A DNA stretch of 64,000 nt from the NCBI RefSeq assembly GCF_023238205.1, contig NZ_CP096659.1, forward strand, positions 372,001 to 436,000, written 5' to 3'. The notes under the pieces were generated by a model. That model was not told the DNA's origin. It made no database searches and saw only the letters and a list, made by a program, of their open reading frames with translations. Both the position numbers and the translations under genes were made by a program. Source of the DNA: Halorussus limi (lineage in GTDB: Archaea > Halobacteriota > Halobacteria > Halobacteriales > Haladaptataceae). Below, piece after piece: positions 13,491-44,493 of the stretch; the stretch's first letter is position 1, and each line of letters starts with the position of its first letter.

Positions 13491-14768
13491 ATGAGCGAAG
13501 AACAACCGGACCGGAAGCAGTCCGGGTTCAAGGACAAGACCCGCGTCGGCGAGGCCCGCGAGCGCCTCCTCGACGCGATTGCGCCCCACGACCGGACCGA
13601 GACGGTCCCGCTGCGGGCCGCGGACGGTCGGGCGCTCGCCGAGGAGGTCGTCGCAGAGCGCAACGTCCCTCACTACCCCAGAGCCGCGATGGACGGCTAC
13701 GCGGTCCGCGCCGCCGACACCTTCGGCGCGAGCGACCGGTCGCCCGAGGTGCTTCGGAGCGCCGAGGAGATGGGTCCCGAGAGCGCGGTCCGCGTCCACA
13801 CCGGGAGCGAACTCCCCGAGGGCGCGGACAGCGTGGTGATGATAGAGCAGGTAGACGAGTTCGGTGACGACGTGGAGGTCTTCGACGCCGTGGCCGAGGG
13901 CGAGAACGTCGCGCCGGTCGGCGAAGACGTAGAGTCCGGCCAGCACCTCTACGACCCCGGCCACCGCCTTCGGCCCTCGGACCTCGGCCTGCTCAAGTCC
14001 GTGGGCGTCGATACCGTCGAAGTCCGCGAGCGCCCGACGGTCGGGGTGATTCCCACGGGCGAGGAACTGGTCCAGTCCGACCCCGACCCCGGCGAAGTCG
14101 TCGAGACGAACGGACTGACGGTCTCTCACTACGTCGAGCGGTGGGGCGGCCGAGCGACCTACCGCGACGTGGTGACCGACGACCGCGACGCGCTCCGGGC
14201 GGCCGTCCAGCGCGACCTGACGAAGGACGTGGTGGTCACGACCGGCGGGTCCTCCGTCGGGGAACGCGACCTGCTCCCCGAAGTCGTCGCGGACCTCGGC
14301 GAGATTCTGTTCCACGGGGTCGCGCTCAAGCCCGGCCACCCCGTCGCGGTAGGTATCGTGGAGGAGACGCCCGTCATCATGTTGCCGGGGTATCCCGTGG
14401 CCTGCATCGTCAACGCGGTCCAGTTCCTCCGGCCCGCGCTGAAGGCGGTCGGCGGCCTTCCCGACGAGGGGTTCCCGACCACCGACGCGCGACTCGACCG
14501 GAAGATCCGGAGCGAACCGGGCGTCCGGACCTTCGCGCGGGTGCAACTGGAGACGGACGCAGACGGCGAGCGCGAGGCGAAGCGTGCCTCGGAGGACGCG
14601 AGCAGTGACGAACCGCGAGCGAAGGTAGCGACGCCGACCAGAGCCTCCGGGTCGGGCGTGCTGTCGAGCGTGGCGCTCGCCGACGGATGGGTCGAGGTAC
14701 CCGAGGGCCGCGAGGGGATTCCGGAGGGCGAGACCGTCGCGGTGCAGGACTGGGAGTGGTCTGCGTGA
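13491..14768 (+). CDS. moeA: Molybdopterin molybdenumtransferase MoeA, first copy
   Basis: A 425-residue enzyme that inserts molybdate (or tungstate) into adenylylated molybdopterin. The start is the ATG of MSEEQPDRK, about 40 bases after a T-rich promoter stretch. Domain order is standard: N-terminal domains I and II with PRAAMDGYAVRAADTFGA (residues about 65-82) and GADSVVMIEQVDEF, the MogA-like domain III (GVIPTGEELV, then TTGGSSVGERD near residue 250 and HGVALKPGHPVAVG), and the C-terminal beta domain IV. Within domain IV an in-frame hydrophilic insert (EREAKRASEDASSDEPRAK) interrupts the conserved path from FARVQLE to GSGVLSSVALADGWVEVPEG. Followed by a second moeA 91 bases downstream. 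Confidence 0.94.
   Translation: MSEEQPDRKQSGFKDKTRVGEARERLLDAIAPHDRTETVPLRAADGRALAEEVVAERNVPHYPRAAMDGYAVRAADTFGASDRSPEVLRSAEEMGPESAVRVHTGSELPEGADSVVMIEQVDEFGDDVEVFDAVAEGENVAPVGEDVESGQHLYDPGHRLRPSDLGLLKSVGVDTVEVRERPTVGVIPTGEELVQSDPDPGEVVETNGLTVSHYVERWGGRATYRDVVTDDRDALRAAVQRDLTKDVVVTTGGSSVGERDLLPEVVADLGEILFHGVALKPGHPVAVGIVEETPVIMLPGYPVACIVNAVQFLRPALKAVGGLPDEGFPTTDARLDRKIRSEPGVRTFARVQLETDADGEREAKRASEDASSDEPRAKVATPTRASGSGVLSSVALADGWVEVPEGREGIPEGETVAVQDWEWSA
14552..14626 (+). repeat. Palindromic in-frame insert in moeA (candidate dispersed element)
   Basis: Between two conserved parts of MoeA domain IV the DNA turns repetitive. GCGAGGCG starts at 14572, and an inverted repeat at 14573-14591 pairs CGAGGC with GCCTCG across a 7-base loop, followed by CTCGGAGGACGCGAGC. 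Related words occur at the same relative place in inserts of the second moeA and of larC. The boundaries are approximate and were chosen from the protein context. The encoded residues are Ala, Ser, Glu and Asp rich. Confidence 0.4.
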
Positions 14769-14859
14769 ATCGTTTCCCTCCGTGTCCTACGGTCGATGGG
14801 AACCGCTCGACAGTAACGCAGCCACCGACTCCACGGACGAAACTGGGAGCTGATAGCCG

Positions 14860-16797
14860 ATGACCGACCGAAAGGAGTTCAGGGACCTCGCGGACCCCGA
14901 CGACGCCAGAGACGCCATCGCATCGCTCGACCTCGCGCCCGAACCGGAAGCGGTCCCGCTCGCCGAGGCCCGCGGCCGCGTCCTCGCCGAGCGCATCGAC
15001 GCTGGCCTCGACGTGCCGGGGTTCGACCGCGCGAGCATGGACGGCTACGCGGTGCGCGCCCGCGACACCTTCGGCGCGGACGAGACCGACCCCGCGAGCC
15101 TCGACCTCGTAGGAACCGTCCACGCGGGCGAGGAACCCGACGTGGAAGTGAGCGAGGGCCGAGCCGTCGAAATCTCGACCGGCGCGGTGATGCCGCCGGG
15201 CGCGGACAGCGTGGTGATGGTCGAGCGCACCGAGGAGTCGGAAGATGGCGACTCGGTTCTCGTCCGGGCCGCCGTCGCGCCCGGAGACAACGTGATGCTC
15301 GCGGGCGCGGACGTGGCCGCCGGCGAGAGCGCGCTCGGCCCCGGAACTCGACTCACGGCCCGCGAAATCGGCCTGTTGTCGGCGCTCGGCGTCGACTCCG
15401 TGCCGGTCCGGGGGACGCCGACGGTCGGTATCGTCTCGACCGGCGACGAGTTGGTCCGGCCCGGCGAAGCGGTCGATAGCGCGGCGGGCCAGATTTACGA
15501 CGTCAACAGCTACACCATCGCGGCCGCAGTGGAGGAGGCGGGCGGCGAGCCGAAACTCTACCCGCACGCCGGCGACGACTACGACGAGATGGAGGAGATT
15601 CTGCGGTCGGCCGCCGACGAGTGCGACCTCGTCCTCTCGTCGGGGTCTACGAGCGCGAGCGCGGTGGACGTCATCTATCGGGTCATCGAGGAGCGGGGCG
15701 AACTGCTCCTCCACGGCGTCGCGGTCAAGCCCGGAAAACCGATGCTGGTCGGGCGAGTGGGCGACTCCGCCTACGTCGGCCTGCCGGGCTATCCCGTCTC
15801 GGCGCTGACCATCTTCCGGACGTTCGTCGCGCCCGCGATTCGGCGGGCCGCCGGGGTTCCGGAACCCGCGACGGCGACCGTCGAGGCCCGGATGGCGACC
15901 GAGGAGCGCTACGGCGAGGGGCGGATGCGGATGATGCCGGTGGGGCTGACCGAGACTGGCGAGGCGCAAAGCGCTTCGAACGCGAGTAGCGCGGAGCGAG
16001 ACTCCGCGAGCGGCGACCTGCTGGCCTACGTCGTGGACAAGGGCAGCGGCGCGACGACGAGCCTCGTGGAGGCCGACGGCGTGGTCGAGGTTCCGGCCGA
16101 CACCGCCTACGTCGCCGAGGGCGAGACCGTCGAGGTGCAACTGTTCTCGCCCGACGTTCGCCCGCCGACGGTGCTGGGCGTCGGCGAGGACGACCCCGCG
16201 CTCGCCCGCCTGCTCGATACGCTGGAGCGCCCGCGCTACCTCTCGGTCGGGTCGCGCGAGGGCCTACGCCGACTCCGGGACGGCGTGCCGGACTTCGCGG
16301 TCACGTCGGCCGACGACCGGGGCGTCGACGCGACCGAACTCGGCGCGTACTCCCGCGAGTGGGGACTGGTCGTGCCCGCCGGGAACCCCGAGGAAATCGC
16401 GGGACTCGCGGACCTCGTGGACCGCGACCTCCGATTCGTCAACCGGGGGTCGGACTCGGGCCTGCGGACCAATCTCGGTAACGCGTTCGCGGCCCTCGCC
16501 GACGAGCGCGGGACGACGCGCCACGACCTCGTGGAGTCCATCGACGGCTTCGAGTTGGCCGCCAAGGCCCACGAGAGTCCCGCCAGAAAAGTCGCCGCCG
16601 GGCGGGCCGACGCCGGACTCGGCTTGCGCGCCACCGCCGAGAAGTTGGGACTGGGTTTCGTTCCGGTCGGCACCGAGACGGTCCGGGTGCTGGCGAACCC
16701 CGACCGCGCGGAGAAGTCCGGCGTCCGAGAACTCGACGCCGCGCTGGGCGAGCGACTGGACGCCGTCCTCGCGGACCTGCCGGGGTTCGACCGGTAA
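14860..16797 (+). CDS. moeA2: MoeA-like molybdopterin biosynthesis protein with C-terminal PBP-like domain
   Basis: A 645-residue fusion. Residues 1-420 are a complete MoeA: RASMDGYAVRARDTFGA, PPGADSVVMVERTEE, GIVSTGDELVRPG, LVLSSGSTSASAVDVIY, LHGVAVKPGKPMLVG and GATTSLVEADGVVEVP. Residues about 430-645 form a periplasmic-binding-protein-like (LysR-substrate-type) domain containing GSREGLRRLRDGVPDFAVTS, FVNRGSDSGLRTNL and AAGRADAGLGLRATAEKLGL. This is the archaeal MoeA-PBP architecture. The PBP part resembles molybdate or tungstate sensor domains and may bind the oxyanion, which is an inference. An insert (EAQSASNASSAERDSASGD) splits domain IV near residue 370. The copy probably divides labour with the first moeA, for example Mo against W. 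Confidence 0.92.
   Translation: MTDRKEFRDLADPDDARDAIASLDLAPEPEAVPLAEARGRVLAERIDAGLDVPGFDRASMDGYAVRARDTFGADETDPASLDLVGTVHAGEEPDVEVSEGRAVEISTGAVMPPGADSVVMVERTEESEDGDSVLVRAAVAPGDNVMLAGADVAAGESALGPGTRLTAREIGLLSALGVDSVPVRGTPTVGIVSTGDELVRPGEAVDSAAGQIYDVNSYTIAAAVEEAGGEPKLYPHAGDDYDEMEEILRSAADECDLVLSSGSTSASAVDVIYRVIEERGELLLHGVAVKPGKPMLVGRVGDSAYVGLPGYPVSALTIFRTFVAPAIRRAAGVPEPATATVEARMATEERYGEGRMRMMPVGLTETGEAQSASNASSAERDSASGDLLAYVVDKGSGATTSLVEADGVVEVPADTAYVAEGETVEVQLFSPDVRPPTVLGVGEDDPALARLLDTLERPRYLSVGSREGLRRLRDGVPDFAVTSADDRGVDATELGAYSREWGLVVPAGNPEEIAGLADLVDRDLRFVNRGSDSGLRTNLGNAFAALADERGTTRHDLVESIDGFELAAKAHESPARKVAAGRADAGLGLRATAEKLGLGFVPVGTETVRVLANPDRAEKSGVRELDAALGERLDAVLADLPGFDR
15957..16016 (+). repeat. 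Palindromic in-frame insert in moeA2 (candidate dispersed element)
   Basis: The insert begins with GCGAGGCGCAAAGCGCT at 15959-15975. Fifteen of these 17 bases match the minus-strand word in the larC insert (complement of 40604-40620). Further on, CGCGGAG pairs with CTCCGCG across a 5-base loop at 15990-16008. It interrupts the sequence between RMMPVGLTETG and LLAYVVDKGSGATTSL without breaking the frame. Ends are estimated from the protein. Confidence 0.42.
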
Positions 16798-16810: not shown

Positions 16811-17512
16811 TCACTTCGAGTTCGCCGTCGCGAGCAGTTCGTCGAACGTTTCGACGCGGTAGTCGCCGAGGACGCACTGCTCGCGGCGGTGGTGGCCGTG
16901 GCGCTCGACGTGGATGGCGTCGAGGCCCGCGTTCCACGCCGCGCCCACGTCGCTCGCGCCGTCGCCCGCGTAGACACCGTCGGACCGGAGGTCCGACGAG
17001 CCTCCGCTCGCCTTGCTCGCGGAGACCCCCTCGTGTCCGTTCTCGCGGACCCCCATCTGCTCTATGGCGTGGTGGAGCGGCGCGGGGTCGGGCTTCCAGC
17101 CTAGTTCCTCGTCGCAGCAGATGATCGTGTCGAACCAGTCGCGGATGCCGAGTTCGTCAAGCACGGGGTCGGCGAGGAACGGCTGGCAGTGGGTGACGAG
17201 TCCGACCGGACAGTCCAACTCGCCGACGAACGCGGCGTCGTCGTAGAGGTAGGTCTCCTCGGCCCGGCGCTGGGGGTCCTCGATGTCGTGGAACACCGGC
17301 CAGAAGTCCTCGGGGTCGATGCCCCACTCGCGCAACTGGTCGTTGCGGTTCCCGCCGAGACCGTGCCAGAGGATTTCGGCCTCGCGGTCGGAGAACTCCC
17401 GGCCGAGACGGTCGCCGACCCTGTCGAACACCGAGCGGGGATACGACCAGTCCACGTCGATGAGGGTGCCGTCCAAGTCGAGCAGCCAGTAATCGTACTC
17501 ACGGGCGACCAT
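16811..17512 (-). CDS. HAD-superfamily phosphatase
   Basis: A 233-residue haloacid-dehalogenase-fold hydrolase, probably a small-molecule phosphatase of the phosphoglycolate-phosphatase type. Motif I is LLDLDGTLIDVDW (nucleophile Asp at about residue 12, acid Asp two residues on). A helical C1 cap follows to about residue 90. Motif II is VGLVTHCQPF (Thr), motif III is the Lys of LGWKPDPAPLHH, and motif IV is VYAGDGASDVGAAWNAG. Between motifs III and IV lies an unusual insert of about 22 residues (ENGHEGVSASKASGGSSD and onward), whose DNA holds a perfect 8-bp palindrome. The substrate is unknown. The gene converges with moeA2, leaving 13 bases. Confidence 0.85.
   Translation of the reverse strand: MVAREYDYWLLDLDGTLIDVDWSYPRSVFDRVGDRLGREFSDREAEILWHGLGGNRNDQLREWGIDPEDFWPVFHDIEDPQRRAEETYLYDDAAFVGELDCPVGLVTHCQPFLADPVLDELGIRDWFDTIICCDEELGWKPDPAPLHHAIEQMGVRENGHEGVSASKASGGSSDLRSDGVYAGDGASDVGAAWNAGLDAIHVERHGHHRREQCVLGDYRVETFDELLATANSK
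16979..17044 (-). repeat. Palindromic in-frame insert in the HAD gene (candidate dispersed element)
   Basis: A perfect inverted repeat at 16979-16997 pairs GTCGGACC with GGTCCGAC across a GGA loop. Its centre CCGGAGG is also the centre of the palindrome at 44161-44185. The rest reads as GCGAGC-rich sequence, including CTCCGCGAGC, which is shared with the moeA2 insert. It lies between catalytic motifs III and IV of the phosphatase and keeps the frame. Boundaries are approximate. Confidence 0.38.
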
Positions 17513-40093: not shown

Positions 40094-41548
40094 TTATTCC
40101 TCTCGCACCGCGCTCTCCGCCCGCCGCATCACCTCGCGGACGGCCACGCTCGCTTCCCGCGCCACCGCGGCGCAGTCGTCGTACTCCGCGCTCACGTCGT
40201 ACACCTCGCCGTCGTCGTCGCTGGCGATTTTCACCGTGACCTCGTAGCGCTCGCCGTCGAGCGAGACGACGACGTCCTCGAACTCCCGGTTGGCTATCCA
40301 GCGGTGGGCCGCACCCGCTTGACGAACCCCGAGCGTGCCGGTCTCCTCGGCGAGTCGGCGCGCGACCCGCTGGGCGTCGTCGGGCTTGCAGACGACCTTC
40401 ACGAGGTGGCCCGGCCGGGACTTCTTCATCGTCAGCGGGACGACGGACACGTCTCGCGCACCGACCTCGGCGAGCGACTCCTGCAGACCGCCCAGAATCT
40501 CGGGCGGCGCGTCGTCGAGATTCGTTTCGAGGACGGCCACGTCGTCGTAGACTAACTCTCCGGAGCCTTCCTCGTTCGCGGTTTCACCGCCCGCGTCTTC
40601 CGGGGCGCGTTGCGCCTCGCTCTCCCCGACCATCGCCCGGAGGACGTTGGGATGCGCCGGGAAGTCGTACCCGCCCGCGCCGTAGCCAGACGCCTCGACG
40701 CGGAGCGACGGGAGCGACTCGACGCCCTCGGCGTAGTGAGCGAGAATCGCCGCGCCGGTGGGCGTCAGCAGTTCGGCCTCTACGGGTCCGCCCCGGAGCG
40801 ACCACTCGGCGCGCTCGGCGAGTTCCACCACGGCGGGCGTCGGAACCGGATAGACGCCGTGGCTCATCTCCACTTCGCCGCCGCCCGTCGCCAGCGGCGT
40901 CGTCACGACGCGCTCGGGGTCCAAATCGTCTACGAGGAGCGCCGCGCCGACCACGTCGGCGACGGCGTCGTCCGCGCCGACCTCGTGGAAGTGGGTCGAT
41001 TCGAGGTCAGTCCCGTGGACGCTCGACTCGGCCTCGCCGAGCAACTCGAAAATCGCCAGCGCGTCGGCCTCGACGCTCTCGGGCAGGCCCATCGACGTCA
41101 CGAGTTCCACGACTTCGGAGTAGGTCCGGAGCGGTCCCGAGCCTTCGGCGTGGGTGTGGTCGTGCGAGTGTTCGTGCGAGTGTTCGTGCGAGTGTTCGTG
41201 AGTGTGGTCGTCGTGGGGGTGGTCGTGTTCCTCCTCGTCGGTGTGGTCGTGGCCGTGCCCCTCGTCGTGGGAATGTCCGTGGTCGTGGTCGTCTCCGTGA
41301 GCGTGGTTCGTGTCGCCGTCGACGGTATCGGAGTCGTCGGTTTCCCCGTCGTTCCCTTCGTCTTCGAGGAGTACCGAGACGGTCGTCGCGGAGATGCCGT
41401 TTTTGCTGGTCTCGCCGACCTCGTAGCGCATCGGAAGCGCGTCTTCGACCGGCGCGAGCGCGTCGGGGTTAGCGCCCGCCGCGAGCAGGGACGCGAGTAT
41501 CATGTCGCCACTCGCGCCCATCCGACCGTCGAATGCGAGCGTCTTCAT
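40094..41548 (-). CDS. larC: LarC-type nickel-pincer cofactor protein
   Basis: A 484-residue LarC, which uses CTP to insert nickel into the pyridinium dithiocarboxylate precursor of the nickel-pincer nucleotide. The ATG gives MKTLAFDGRMGASGDMILAS, the family N-terminus. Residues about 82-137 are His/Asp/Glu rich (HGDDHDHGHSHDEGHGHDHT, then repeated EHSH units), a metal-storage stretch typical of LarC. Conserved parts follow: ESTHFHEVGADDAVADVVGA, TPLATGGGEVEMSHGVYPVP, LLTPTGAAILAHYA and VLETNLDDAPPEILGGL with VPLTMKKSRPGHLVKVVCKP. It is one continuous reading frame. No larA, larB or larE is in the window, so the nickel enzyme served is unknown. An insert interrupts it near residue 315. Confidence 0.9.
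   Translation of the reverse strand: MKTLAFDGRMGASGDMILASLLAAGANPDALAPVEDALPMRYEVGETSKNGISATTVSVLLEDEGNDGETDDSDTVDGDTNHAHGDDHDHGHSHDEGHGHDHTDEEEHDHPHDDHTHEHSHEHSHEHSHDHTHAEGSGPLRTYSEVVELVTSMGLPESVEADALAIFELLGEAESSVHGTDLESTHFHEVGADDAVADVVGAALLVDDLDPERVVTTPLATGGGEVEMSHGVYPVPTPAVVELAERAEWSLRGGPVEAELLTPTGAAILAHYAEGVESLPSLRVEASGYGAGGYDFPAHPNVLRAMVGESEAQRAPEDAGGETANEEGSGELVYDDVAVLETNLDDAPPEILGGLQESLAEVGARDVSVVPLTMKKSRPGHLVKVVCKPDDAQRVARRLAEETGTLGVRQAGAAHRWIANREFEDVVVSLDGERYEVTVKIASDDDGEVYDVSAEYDDCAAVAREASVAVREVMRRAESAVREE
40570..40620 (-). repeat. Palindromic in-frame insert in larC (candidate dispersed element)
   Basis: On the minus strand the insert opens with GCGAGGCGCAACGCGCC, which matches the moeA2 insert at 15 of 17 bases, then CCCGGAAGACGCG, close to CTCGGAGGACGCG in the first moeA. 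Two small hairpins are present: GGCGC/GCGCC at 40604-40616 and GCGGT/ACCGC at about 40578-40590, each with a 3-base loop. It codes for EAQRAPEDAGGETANEEGSG between conserved LarC segments. Confidence 0.42.
41161..41208 (-). repeat. 12-base tandem repeat in the His-rich region of larC
   Basis: The unit CGTGCGAGTGTT (plus strand) occurs three times in a row at 41161-41196, followed by a degenerate fourth copy CGTGAGTGTGGT. On the coding strand each unit gives a His-Glu-His-Ser tetrapeptide. Whole-codon units allow length change by slippage without a frameshift, so the number of His residues probably varies between strains. Confidence 0.75.
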
Positions 41549-41909: not shown

Positions 41910-44135
41910 ATGAATGAAGTCCAACTAGAGGTGGCAAAGGCGTACCCGAACGATTCGGGTCGCGGTATCGCCCGTCTCGACCCGGACACGCTGTTGCATC
42001 TGAAGCTCAGTCCGGGCGACATCATCGAAATCGAAGGCGGTGACACGACCGCCGCGAAGGTCTGGCGCGCGGACCGTCAGGACTGGAACACCGACACGGT
42101 TCGCATCGACGGGTTCACCCGACAGAACGCCGACGTGGGCATCGGCGAGCGCGTCGAGATTCGGAAGGCCGAGGCCGAGAAGGCCGACAAACTGGTCCTC
42201 GCGCCGCCCGAGGAGGCCAGCGTGCAGTTCGGTTCCGACGCCGCAGGGATGGTCAAGCGCCAGATTCTCAAGCGCCCGGTGGTCGAGCGCGACATCGTCC
42301 CCGTGATGTCCTCGACCAACCACCCGTTCATGCGGTCGCCCGGACAGGCGATTCCGCTCATCGCGGTCGAGACCGACCCCGACGGCGTCTGTCTCATCAC
42401 CGAGGACACCGAGGTCGAGTTGCGAGAAGAACCCATCTCTGGCTTCGAGAAGACCGGCGGCGGCATCACCTACGAGGACATCGGCGGTCTCGAAAACGAG
42501 ATTCAACGCGTCCGGGAGATGGTCGAACTCCCGATGAAGCACCCCCAGATTTTCAAGAAACTGGGCATCGAACCGCCGCAGGGTGTCCTGCTCCACGGCC
42601 CGCCCGGCACGGGCAAGACCCTGCTCGCCAAGGCGGTCGCCAACGAGACGTCCGCGAGTTTCTTCTCCATCGCGGGCCCGGAGATAATCTCTAAGTACTA
42701 CGGCGAGTCCGAGCAACAACTCCGGGAAATCTTCGAGGACGCCACCGAGGAGTCGCCCTCTATCATCTTCATCGACGAGTTGGACTCCATCGCACCCAAG
42801 CGCGAGGACGTGACCGGCGAGGTCGAACGCCGCGTCGTGGCCCAACTGCTGACCATGATGGACGGTCTCGAATCCCGCGGGCAGGTCATCGTCATCGCGG
42901 CGACCAACCGCGTGGACTCGGTCGACCCCGCGCTCCGGCGTCCGGGTCGGTTCGACCGCGAAATCGAAATCGGCGTGCCGGACGAGACCGGCCGCGAGGA
43001 GATTCTCCAGATTCACACCCGGGGGATGCCCCTCTCGGACGACGTGGCGCTGGACTCGCTGGCCAACGACACCCACGGCTTCGTCGGCGCGGACATCGAG
43101 AGCCTGACGAAGGAGGCCGCGATGAAGGCCCTGCGGCGCTACCTCCCCGAAATCGACCTCGACGAGGAGGACATTCCGCCGAGCCTCATCGACCGGATGA
43201 TAGTCAAGCGCGAGGACTTCAACGGCGCGCTCAACGAGGTCGAACCCTCCGCGATGCGCGAGGTCCTCGTGGAACTGCCCAAAATCTCGTGGGATGACGT
43301 GGGCGGTCTCGAAGAGGCCCAACAGCAGGTCAAAGAGAGCGTCGAGTGGCCCCTCTCGTCGCCCGAGCGGTTCCAACGGCTGGGTATCAACCCGCCGAGC
43401 GGCGTCCTGCTCTACGGCCCGCCCGGCACGGGTAAGACCCTGATGGCGAAGGCGGTGGCCAACGAGACCAACGCCAACTTCATCTCGGTCCGCGGCCCGC
43501 AACTCCTCAGCAAGTGGGTCGGCGAGTCCGAGAAGGCCATCCGCCAGACGTTCCGGAAGGCCCGGCAGGTCTCCCCGACCGTCATCTTCTTCGACGAGTT
43601 GGACAGCCTCGCGCCCTCCCGGAGTCAGGAGATGGGCAGTAACGTCTCCGAGCGCGTGGTCAACCAACTGCTCACGGAACTCGACGGACTGGAGGAGAAG
43701 GGCGACGTCATGGTCATCGGCGCGACCAACCGCCCGGACATGATAGACCCGGCGCTCATCCGGTCGGGCCGGTTCGACCGCCTCGTGATGATCGGTCAAC
43801 CCGACGAGGAGGGCCGCGAACAGATTCTGAAGATTCACACGGACGACACGCCGCTGTCGGCCGACGTGAGCCTGCGCGAACTCGCGGAAATCACCGACGG
43901 CTACGTGGGTAGCGACCTCGAATCCATCGCCCGCGAGGCCGCCATCGAGGCGCTCCGCGAGGACGACGACGCCACCGAGGTCGGCATGAGCCACTTCCGG
44001 CAGGCGATGGAGAACGTCCGGCCCACCATCACCGAAGACCTGCTCGACTACTACGAGCAGATGGAAGACGAGTTCAAGGGCGGGTCGTCGAGTCCGACGC
44101 AGGGTCGGCGCGGCGGCCGTATCGGCTTCCAATAA
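41910..44135 (+). CDS. cdc48: Cdc48/p97/VAT AAA+ unfoldase
   Basis: A 741-residue hexameric ATPase that extracts and unfolds proteins, feeding the archaeal proteasome. The N-terminal double-psi barrel and 4-fold domain cover about 1-185 ([20 protein letters not shown]). The D1 AAA domain has Walker [16 protein letters not shown] near residue 230, Walker [13 protein letters not shown], and sensor region [20 protein letters not shown]. The D2 domain has Walker [16 protein letters not shown] near 503, Walker [13 protein letters not shown], and [20 protein letters not shown]. Both arginine-finger regions are present. The C-terminus is a Gly/Ser/Arg tail ([18 protein letters not shown]). Haloarchaea often hold several paralogues. 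This is a full-length two-domain form. Confidence 0.96.
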
Positions 44136-44160
44136 ACCGTTACGACCTTTTCCAGCGGTC

Positions 44161-44185
44161 GAAGATTCGCCGGAGGCGAATCTTC
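44161..44185 (+). repeat. Palindrome 1 downstream of cdc48
   Basis: A perfect inverted repeat with 11-base arms, GAAGATTCGCC and GGCGAATCTTC, and a 3-base loop GGA. It begins 25 bases after the cdc48 stop and could end transcription as a stem, although no T-run follows on the plus strand. Thirteen of its bases (GATTCGCCGGAGG) recur on the minus strand just after pstB, at 52196-52208. Confidence 0.7.
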
Positions 44186-44222
44186 TCCCTTGCAAAAGCT
44201 CGACCAAAAACACGGCGTCACC

Positions 44223-44255
44223 CCCTCGGAAGCGCCTGCGGCGCTTCTTCGAGGG
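44223..44255 (+). repeat. Palindrome 2 downstream of cdc48
   Basis: An inverted repeat pairing CCCTCG plus GAAGCGCC with GGCGCTTC plus CGAGGG. The stem is 14 bp with a two-base bulge (TT) on the right arm and the loop TGC. It is the second of three stems spaced 40-60 bases apart in the cdc48 downstream region. Confidence 0.65.
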
Positions 44256-44282
44256 TTCCTTGGTCCGCTCGCTCGTCACGTA

Positions 44283-44303
44283 GCGCGGCGCTTCGCGCCG
44301 CGC
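44283..44303 (+). repeat. Palindrome 3 downstream of cdc48
   Basis: A perfect inverted repeat with 9-base arms, GCGCGGCGC and GCGCCGCGC, and loop TTC. Together with the two stems upstream it fills the 358-base gap between cdc48 and the DUF4097 gene with palindromic DNA. The gap (44136-44493) contains no convincing coding frame. A TATA-like element for the next gene may lie near 44460. Confidence 0.65.
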
Positions 44304-44493
44304 AGTCGTTCCTCGCTCGCGGTCGATTGCGGTGTTCGGTGCAAAGCCGAGGAGAGCGTTCGCCGATGGAACGTCGAGGCCATGCGCGGTCGTGAGCCGC
44401 GGACTCGGCATCATAATAAGCGTTTGGGGTAGCCGCTGGCCCTGCGAACCTGTTCCCTTCTTTAAGGTGGGCTGAACAGTATCTCGTAACGTC

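Follow-up and report, generated by a model that had tools for sequence, protein, structure and literature searches.

The insert in the moeA2 gene analysed here is one of many dispersed copies of a short two-hairpin sequence, which is probably a non-autonomous insertion element of haloarchaea that resembles the Rickettsia palindromic elements (RPEs), prefers an in-frame (A/G)GCGAG target and is filtered by selection; we infer both its mobility and an enzyme acting on it. The window, meaning the whole stretch of 64,000 nucleotides that was analysed (G000:C1:372001-436000), comes from a chromosome of Halorussus, in a haloarchaeal genome of 4.62 Mb, and the closest named MoeA2 orthologues of the window gene are from Halorussus. 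Genes were called by open frame and codon score.

A word shared by moeA2 and larC

The preliminary description of the window had noted a 17-base word common to two genes, GCGAGGCGCAAAGCGCT at 15959-15975 (+) in moeA2 and GCGAGGCGCAACGCGCC on the complement of 40604-40620 in larC. The two words are indeed equal at 15 of 17 bases and encode, each in the frame of its gene, EAQSA in a 645-aa MoeA and EAQRA in a LarC-type nickel-insertion protein. The hairpins that it had described in both inserts were also found, with a first hairpin (H1) and a second hairpin (H2) in each copy (Table 1). Within the window alone this coincidence is mildly unusual: the 17-base word has 3 matches at up to 3 mismatches versus 0.49 expected, GAGGCGCAANGCGC has 2 matches at up to 1 mismatch versus 0.30 expected, and the number of perfect hairpins is barely above that in shuffled sequence. 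Because the match is weak at this scale, the search was extended to the genome and its relatives, and it is the whole genome that is decisive.

In addition to the two copies first described, the window contains a copy in moeA1, an insert resembling the element in the gene for a HAD-family hydrolase, and a cluster of intergenic hairpins (Table 1). The insert in the HAD-family gene is in frame relative to the genomes G007 and G015, is also carried by the relative G004, and has a fold z of -2.85. The perfect hairpins of the intergenic cluster have differing stems, such as GAAGATTCGCC(GGA)GGCGAATCTTC and GAAGCGCC(TGC)GGCGCTTC, and may be related intergenic elements or terminators. The moeA paralogues lie side by side at 13494-16797, each with an element shortly ahead of the MoeA C-terminal domain, apparently at the corresponding turn, and moeA2 has an additional C-terminal PBP_like domain. 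The confidence of the MoeA2 structure predicted by AlphaFold (pLDDT 61, pTM 0.43) is too low for locating the insert. At 41150-41360 larC also encodes a long His/Asp/Glu-rich stretch (HDHGHSHDEGHGHDH...EHSHEHSHEHSHDHTH), which is probably metal-binding and tandem-repetitive.

Table 1. Element copies, their hairpins and related features in the window
Feature	Position	Strand	Description and basis
Element copy in moeA2 (gene 14860-16797)	15957..16016	+	In-frame insert encoding EAQSASNASSAERDSASG; match to covariance model R1 at 15956-16012, E 5.3e-6
H1 of moeA2 copy, CGAGGCGC(AAA)GCGCTTCG	15960..15978	+	Sequence, fold; one G-T mismatch short of a perfect palindrome
H2 of moeA2 copy, CGCGGAG(CGAGA)CTCCGCG	15990..16008	+	Hairpin search, fold
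Element copy in larC (gene 40094-41548, minus)	40573..40623	-	Encodes ESEAQRAPEDAGGETANE; R1 E 5.3e-11; filled and empty orthologues
H1 of larC copy, CGAGGCGC(AAC)GCGCCCCG	40601..40619	-	Sequence, alignment
H2 of larC copy, GCGGT(GAA)ACCGC	40578..40590	-	Sequence, alignment
Element copy in moeA1 (gene about 13494-14768)	14569..14621	+	Encodes EREAKRASEDASSDEPRA; R1 E 4.2e-8; H1 partly decayed
Element-like insert in HAD-family hydrolase gene (16811-17512, minus)	16975..17032	-	Encodes EGVSASKASGGSSDLRSD; stem CGTCGGACC(GGA)GGTCCGACG at 16978-16998
Intergenic hairpin cluster downstream of cdc48 (41910-44135)	44140..44330		Includes CGCGGCGC(TTC)GCGCCGCG; R1 E 6.3e-5

Anatomy and distribution of the element

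The palindrome GCGAGGCGC-NNN-GCGCCTCG occurs at many unrelated sites in the genome, as seen in the sequence around the exact matches, and a second hairpin often comes after it. The element has the consensus AGCGAGGCGC-RNN-GCGCCTCG-(7-10 nt)-GCGAGCGGY-GAA-RCCGCGAGC and forms a unit of about 45-60 nt, in which H1 (8-bp stem, 3-nt loop) is joined by a linker of 7-10 nt to H2 (loop of 3-7 nt). In alignment A1 (21 copies), H1 reads CGAGGCGC(RNN)GCGCCTCG and H2 reads GCGGY(GAA)RCCGC, with GCGAG motifs ahead of H1, ahead of H2 and after H2. H1 is exactly CGAGGCGC/GCGCCTCG in 82 of 113 aligned copies. Alignments A1 and A2 contain no inverted repeat joining the two ends of the unit, which bear direct GCGAG motifs. 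The consensus folds better than all 200 shuffled sequences (z -3.27), while the copies in moeA2 (z -1.55) and larC (z -1.05) fold unremarkably because both are slightly decayed. One intergenic copy elsewhere in the genome (L008, G000:C1:1578335-1581349) has a 10-bp stem, CGCGAGGCGC(AGA)GCGCCTCGCG, and adjoins the repeated sequence TCCCACCGGAAGGTGCCGTTTCG.

The palindrome CGAGGCGCNNNGCGCCTCG, allowing up to 1 mismatch, has 17 matches in this genome and 241 in 18 Halorussus genomes, compared with 0 and 6, respectively, for a control consisting of the same pattern backwards, with identical composition; it is present in 45 of 59 relatives. These counts lie far above what composition would give; the preliminary description had named the codon use of Glu-Ala-Gln as a possible source of the shared word. 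Looser patterns were set aside: GAGGCGCAANGCGCC at 2 mismatches is uninformative across the genome (107 matches versus 149 for its reversed control), and the palindrome at 3 mismatches (350 versus 126) is mixed with codon-driven noise, so that the informative patterns are the closer matches and the palindrome in its full symmetric form.

The covariance model R1 identified 30 copies in this genome at E<=0.0025 and, at E<=0.001 and with no more than 20 candidates scored per genome, matched at least 261 of the 292 genomes of Halobacteria. In a sample of the phylum, R1 matched 29 of the 33 genomes from Halobacteria but not one of the roughly 164 from other Halobacteriota classes, a contrast that may be partly compositional because the other classes gave far fewer first-look candidates. 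The reversed-pattern control is free of this weakness. The element is restricted to Halobacteria in the genomes sampled. Copies occur on archaeal chromosomes, and four haloarchaeal plasmids also match; there was no match in the phage records searched. We came across no account of a haloarchaeal element of this kind in the literature that we searched, an incomplete set missing most subscription journals.

Many H1 palindromes in Haladaptatus genomes are intergenic (loci L202, L186 and L056), one of them adjoining an apparent tRNA gene. At locus L058 (G020:C1:1163556-1166574), in Haladaptatus-like DNA, two H1 palindromes are 179 bp apart, with the same 40 bases before each and T-runs after them, and resemble an intergenic unit that has been duplicated.

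Presence and absence of the insert among orthologues

Alignment of orthologues showed that the segment is not universal, with both filled and empty relatives for moeA2, larC, moeA1, purK and trpA. For moeA2, the filled relatives are G010, H. ruber and H. salinisoli, which like this species each have their own variant of the insert, and the empty ones include H. aquaticus, H. litoreus, H. halobius, H. amylolyticus, Haladaptatus and Halobellus. The larC insert occurs in G000 (the genome of the window), G010, G008, G012 and G014 and is absent in most others, while moeA1 is filled in G000 alone among five genomes and empty in four Halorussus relatives. PurK is filled in G000, G011, G017, G004 and G024 but in none of the others, and filled purK genes exist in both Halorussus and Haladaptatus. 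The genomes with a filled trpA are G006, G007, G008, G017, G018, G020, G023 and G058, whereas the site is empty in G000 and others. Aligned with PDB 5ey5, TrpA residues 104 and 123, which are adjacent in the template, are separated by 18 added residues with none lost, placing the insert at a turn. From these alignments, the insert reads as an insertion and not as an ancient loop. Together with the genome counts, the filled and empty orthologues bear out the earlier suggestion of a dispersed palindromic element that resides inside genes.

Counting matches that read as TrpA, about 40 of 392 Halobacteria genomes, spread over many genera, carry an element at this one trpA position, and carB is a further recurrent site. 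At trpA, carB and purK the same sites are occupied in distant genera and occupancy is patchy. On a tree of TrpA and PurK, the 7 filled trpA genomes require 7 changes (mean of 6.5 with shuffled labels) and the 5 filled purK genomes require 5 (mean of 4.8). Differences at purK and larC separate G004 from its sister genome G014, and the length of the linker, the loops and the H2 stem vary between species at one site. As the genomes compared are from separate species rather than strains, the events are old.

Each of the nine length differences between filled and empty sites that were examined is divisible by three. Such differences run from 42 to 96 nt, with the nested copies the longest. Every filled site examined has (A/G)GCGAG, (A/G)GCGA or (A/G)GCGCG at its left border. 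Some filled/empty pairs have sharp borders, while in others the borders are not clean and have been blurred by divergence. In two pairs only, purK of G000 and trpA of G017, the AGCGAG of the empty site flanks the insert at both ends, which is what target duplication would give. A second element is nested within the first in larC of G014 (54 nt, relative to G008) and in purK of G004 (51 nt), in both cases with precise borders and at the identical internal point of H2, GCGAG^CGGTGA.

Coding frame, strand and stem pairing

In a sample of 78 copies picked by the H1 palindrome alone, 49 are in a coding frame and 29 are not. Forty-five of the 49 share one frame, which reads (S/G)-E-A-x-x-A-S, and on the coding strand H2 is only downstream of H1 in 33 copies and only upstream in 3. 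Palindrome copies from Halorussus are mostly coding (25 of 28), and the 29 copies outside a coding frame are mostly from Haladaptatus. Coding copies on the sense strand and in the same frame make up 22 of the 27 R1 matches of this genome that were classified and 19 of the 20 highest-scoring copies drawn from a range of genera. The remaining frames and strand of the element encode basic or hydrophobic stretches. Of the 492 occurrences of RGCGAG in Halorussus genes, 225 are in sense orientation and in phase with the codons, far above one sixth. The phase of this presumed target, together with selection against the other frames and strand, can produce the observed bias; however, RGCGAG is also common antisense in genes, and therefore the target alone is insufficient to explain it.

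Among 109 distinct aligned copies, 98.2% of the pair cells are standard, compared with 90.8% for shuffled copies and 22-57% for slid controls, percentages that lean towards structure because the alignment was fitted to the model. Changes on both sides were detected in 9 of 13 pairs, for a total of 94 cells. At columns 7/31 of H1 there are 13 double changes of all kinds, no single change and one unpaired case; the commonest change, A-T to C-G, converts GAG to GCG (Glu to Ala) and TCG to GCG (Ser to Ala) together. Double changes at orthologous sites can be read directly. At the same site in moeA2, H. ruber has the compensated H1 variant CGAGGCAC(CCG)GTGCCTCG, with GAGGCAC/GTGCCTC in place of GAGGCGC/GCGCCTC, while larC of G008 has GCGGCGC/GCGCCGC instead. 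The stems are thus compensated even where both codons change, and therefore it is the hairpin that is kept and not the peptide. This pattern argues for selection or a copying process that acts on the nucleic acid and not on the peptide.

Possible origins of the copies

In the explanation that we favor, an enzyme or a repair process that acts on the folded strand would move or copy the element to new sites. Copies would enter at pre-existing (A/G)GCGA(G/C) sequences. In haloarchaeal genes these would mostly lie in phase and specify Ser/Gly-Glu/Asp in surface turns, and each insert would accordingly add a loop rich in acidic residues, Ser and Ala. Selection would mostly purge insertions that have another frame or lie on the opposite strand, leaving the acidic, small-residue loops that keep the frame, and copies would probably be lost again via deletion between flanking GCGAG repeats. 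A benefit to the host would not be required. A further proposal, which we put forward tentatively and with some doubt, is that the target preference makes genes, and not intergenic DNA, the usual home of the element by guiding entry on the sense strand and in the harmless frame, with the same loop repeatedly added and removed at the same positions of TrpA, CarB, PurK and MoeA throughout the class. Recurrent occupation of trpA, carB and purK could instead reflect inheritance with loss or exchange of alleles.

Haloarchaea recombine often, and the element could have been inserted ancestrally at shared sites, then kept or lost by lineage with alleles exchanged through homologous recombination and little recent mobility. 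The occupation of one trpA position across many genera and of purK in both Halorussus and Haladaptatus fits such a history. However, the linkers, loops and H2 stems are unlike between species at one site, the moeA1 copy is in this genome alone of the five compared, and the sisters G004 and G014 are unlike at purK and larC, making the history unlikely as the main explanation. Local mutation, in which template switching during replication at hairpins builds and re-perfects palindromes in tolerant surface loops with no mobile sequence, would explain why the stems vary and yet keep almost complete self-complementarity, G-T intermediates being few, as if one arm had been copied onto the other, and why quite different stems exist in the HAD-family gene and the 44140-44330 cluster. 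Local processes would give unrelated palindromes, though, whereas unrelated genes share the H1 sequence (exactly, in 82 of 113 copies), the order H1-linker-H2 and the spacing of GCGAG, and the nested copies have precise borders. We consider this origin improbable, but template switching may still account for stems remaining perfect after insertion.

That nearly all coding copies use one frame and one strand, that most Halorussus palindromes are in genes and that pairing is preserved would also be expected of a peptide linker or mRNA hairpin with a function for the host, either maintained or recruited. Such a module is, in our judgment, quite improbable: the paired changes at columns 7/31 alter both amino acids, so the peptide is not conserved; the host genes are unrelated and orthologues manage without the insert; many Haladaptatus copies are outside genes; and the scarcity of G-U pairs counts against pairing in RNA only. 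Chance, or the codon usage of Glu-Ala-Gln in GC-rich genes, would be compatible with a match that is only weakly unusual within 64 kb, but can be dismissed almost entirely given the 241 matches versus 6 for a reversed pattern of identical composition, the filled and empty orthologues, and the lack of matches in the other Halobacteriota genomes.

If the element is a selfish, RPE-like insertion, then in-frame palindromes inside conserved genes, for which Rickettsia and Wolbachia are known, would also be a feature of an archaeal class, and many 'hydrophilic inserts' of haloarchaeal proteins, which could be read as adaptations to salt, would be insertion scars instead. The trpA, carB and purK genes offer filled/empty pairs for studying how proteins accept inserts of 15-18 residues. 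Because genetic systems exist for haloarchaea, the mobility of the element, its translation and its fitness cost are directly testable.

Comparison with known elements

Several known types of sequence were considered and set aside. At gathering thresholds, Rfam has only a tRNA match in the window and the element matches no curated RNA family, so identity with an Rfam RNA was rejected. Haloarchaeal MITEs are likewise small, non-autonomous and multicopy, but a classical MITE does not fit an element with no terminal inverted repeats around the unit and no recognized parent transposon; signs of target duplication are limited to the two filled/empty pairs described above. The REP and REPIN sequences mobilised by RAYT are also short scattered palindromes that are sometimes paired; however, REPs are extragenic (PMC3733652), whereas most Halorussus copies are inside genes.

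RPEs are dispersed hairpin-forming repeats that are found between genes and in frame within unrelated conserved genes, and have been reported to lie where proteins are exposed to solvent (PMC3767692, PMC10969869). The preliminary description had likened the insert to them, and the likeness holds: the haloarchaeal element is dispersed, palindromic and hairpin-forming, and is both intergenic and in frame in unrelated genes. It is nevertheless not itself an RPE. RPEs are 100-150 bp long and belong to Rickettsia, with related ones in Wolbachia, whereas the haloarchaeal element is set apart by its shorter length and its taxon, having two separate hairpins, its own consensus and an occurrence only in Halobacteria among the genomes searched.

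Fungal and algal mitochondrial genomes contain double-hairpin elements which, like the GC clusters of yeast, consist of two linked short hairpins, are dispersed and have been inferred to be mobile. The haloarchaeal element shares with them, in a comparison of anatomy only, the two hairpins and a linker, although they are organellar, whereas it belongs to archaea and in Halorussus resides mainly within protein-coding genes of the chromosome, in frame. By analogy, the element therefore appears closest to RPEs in its behavior and closest to the mitochondrial double-hairpin elements in its anatomy.
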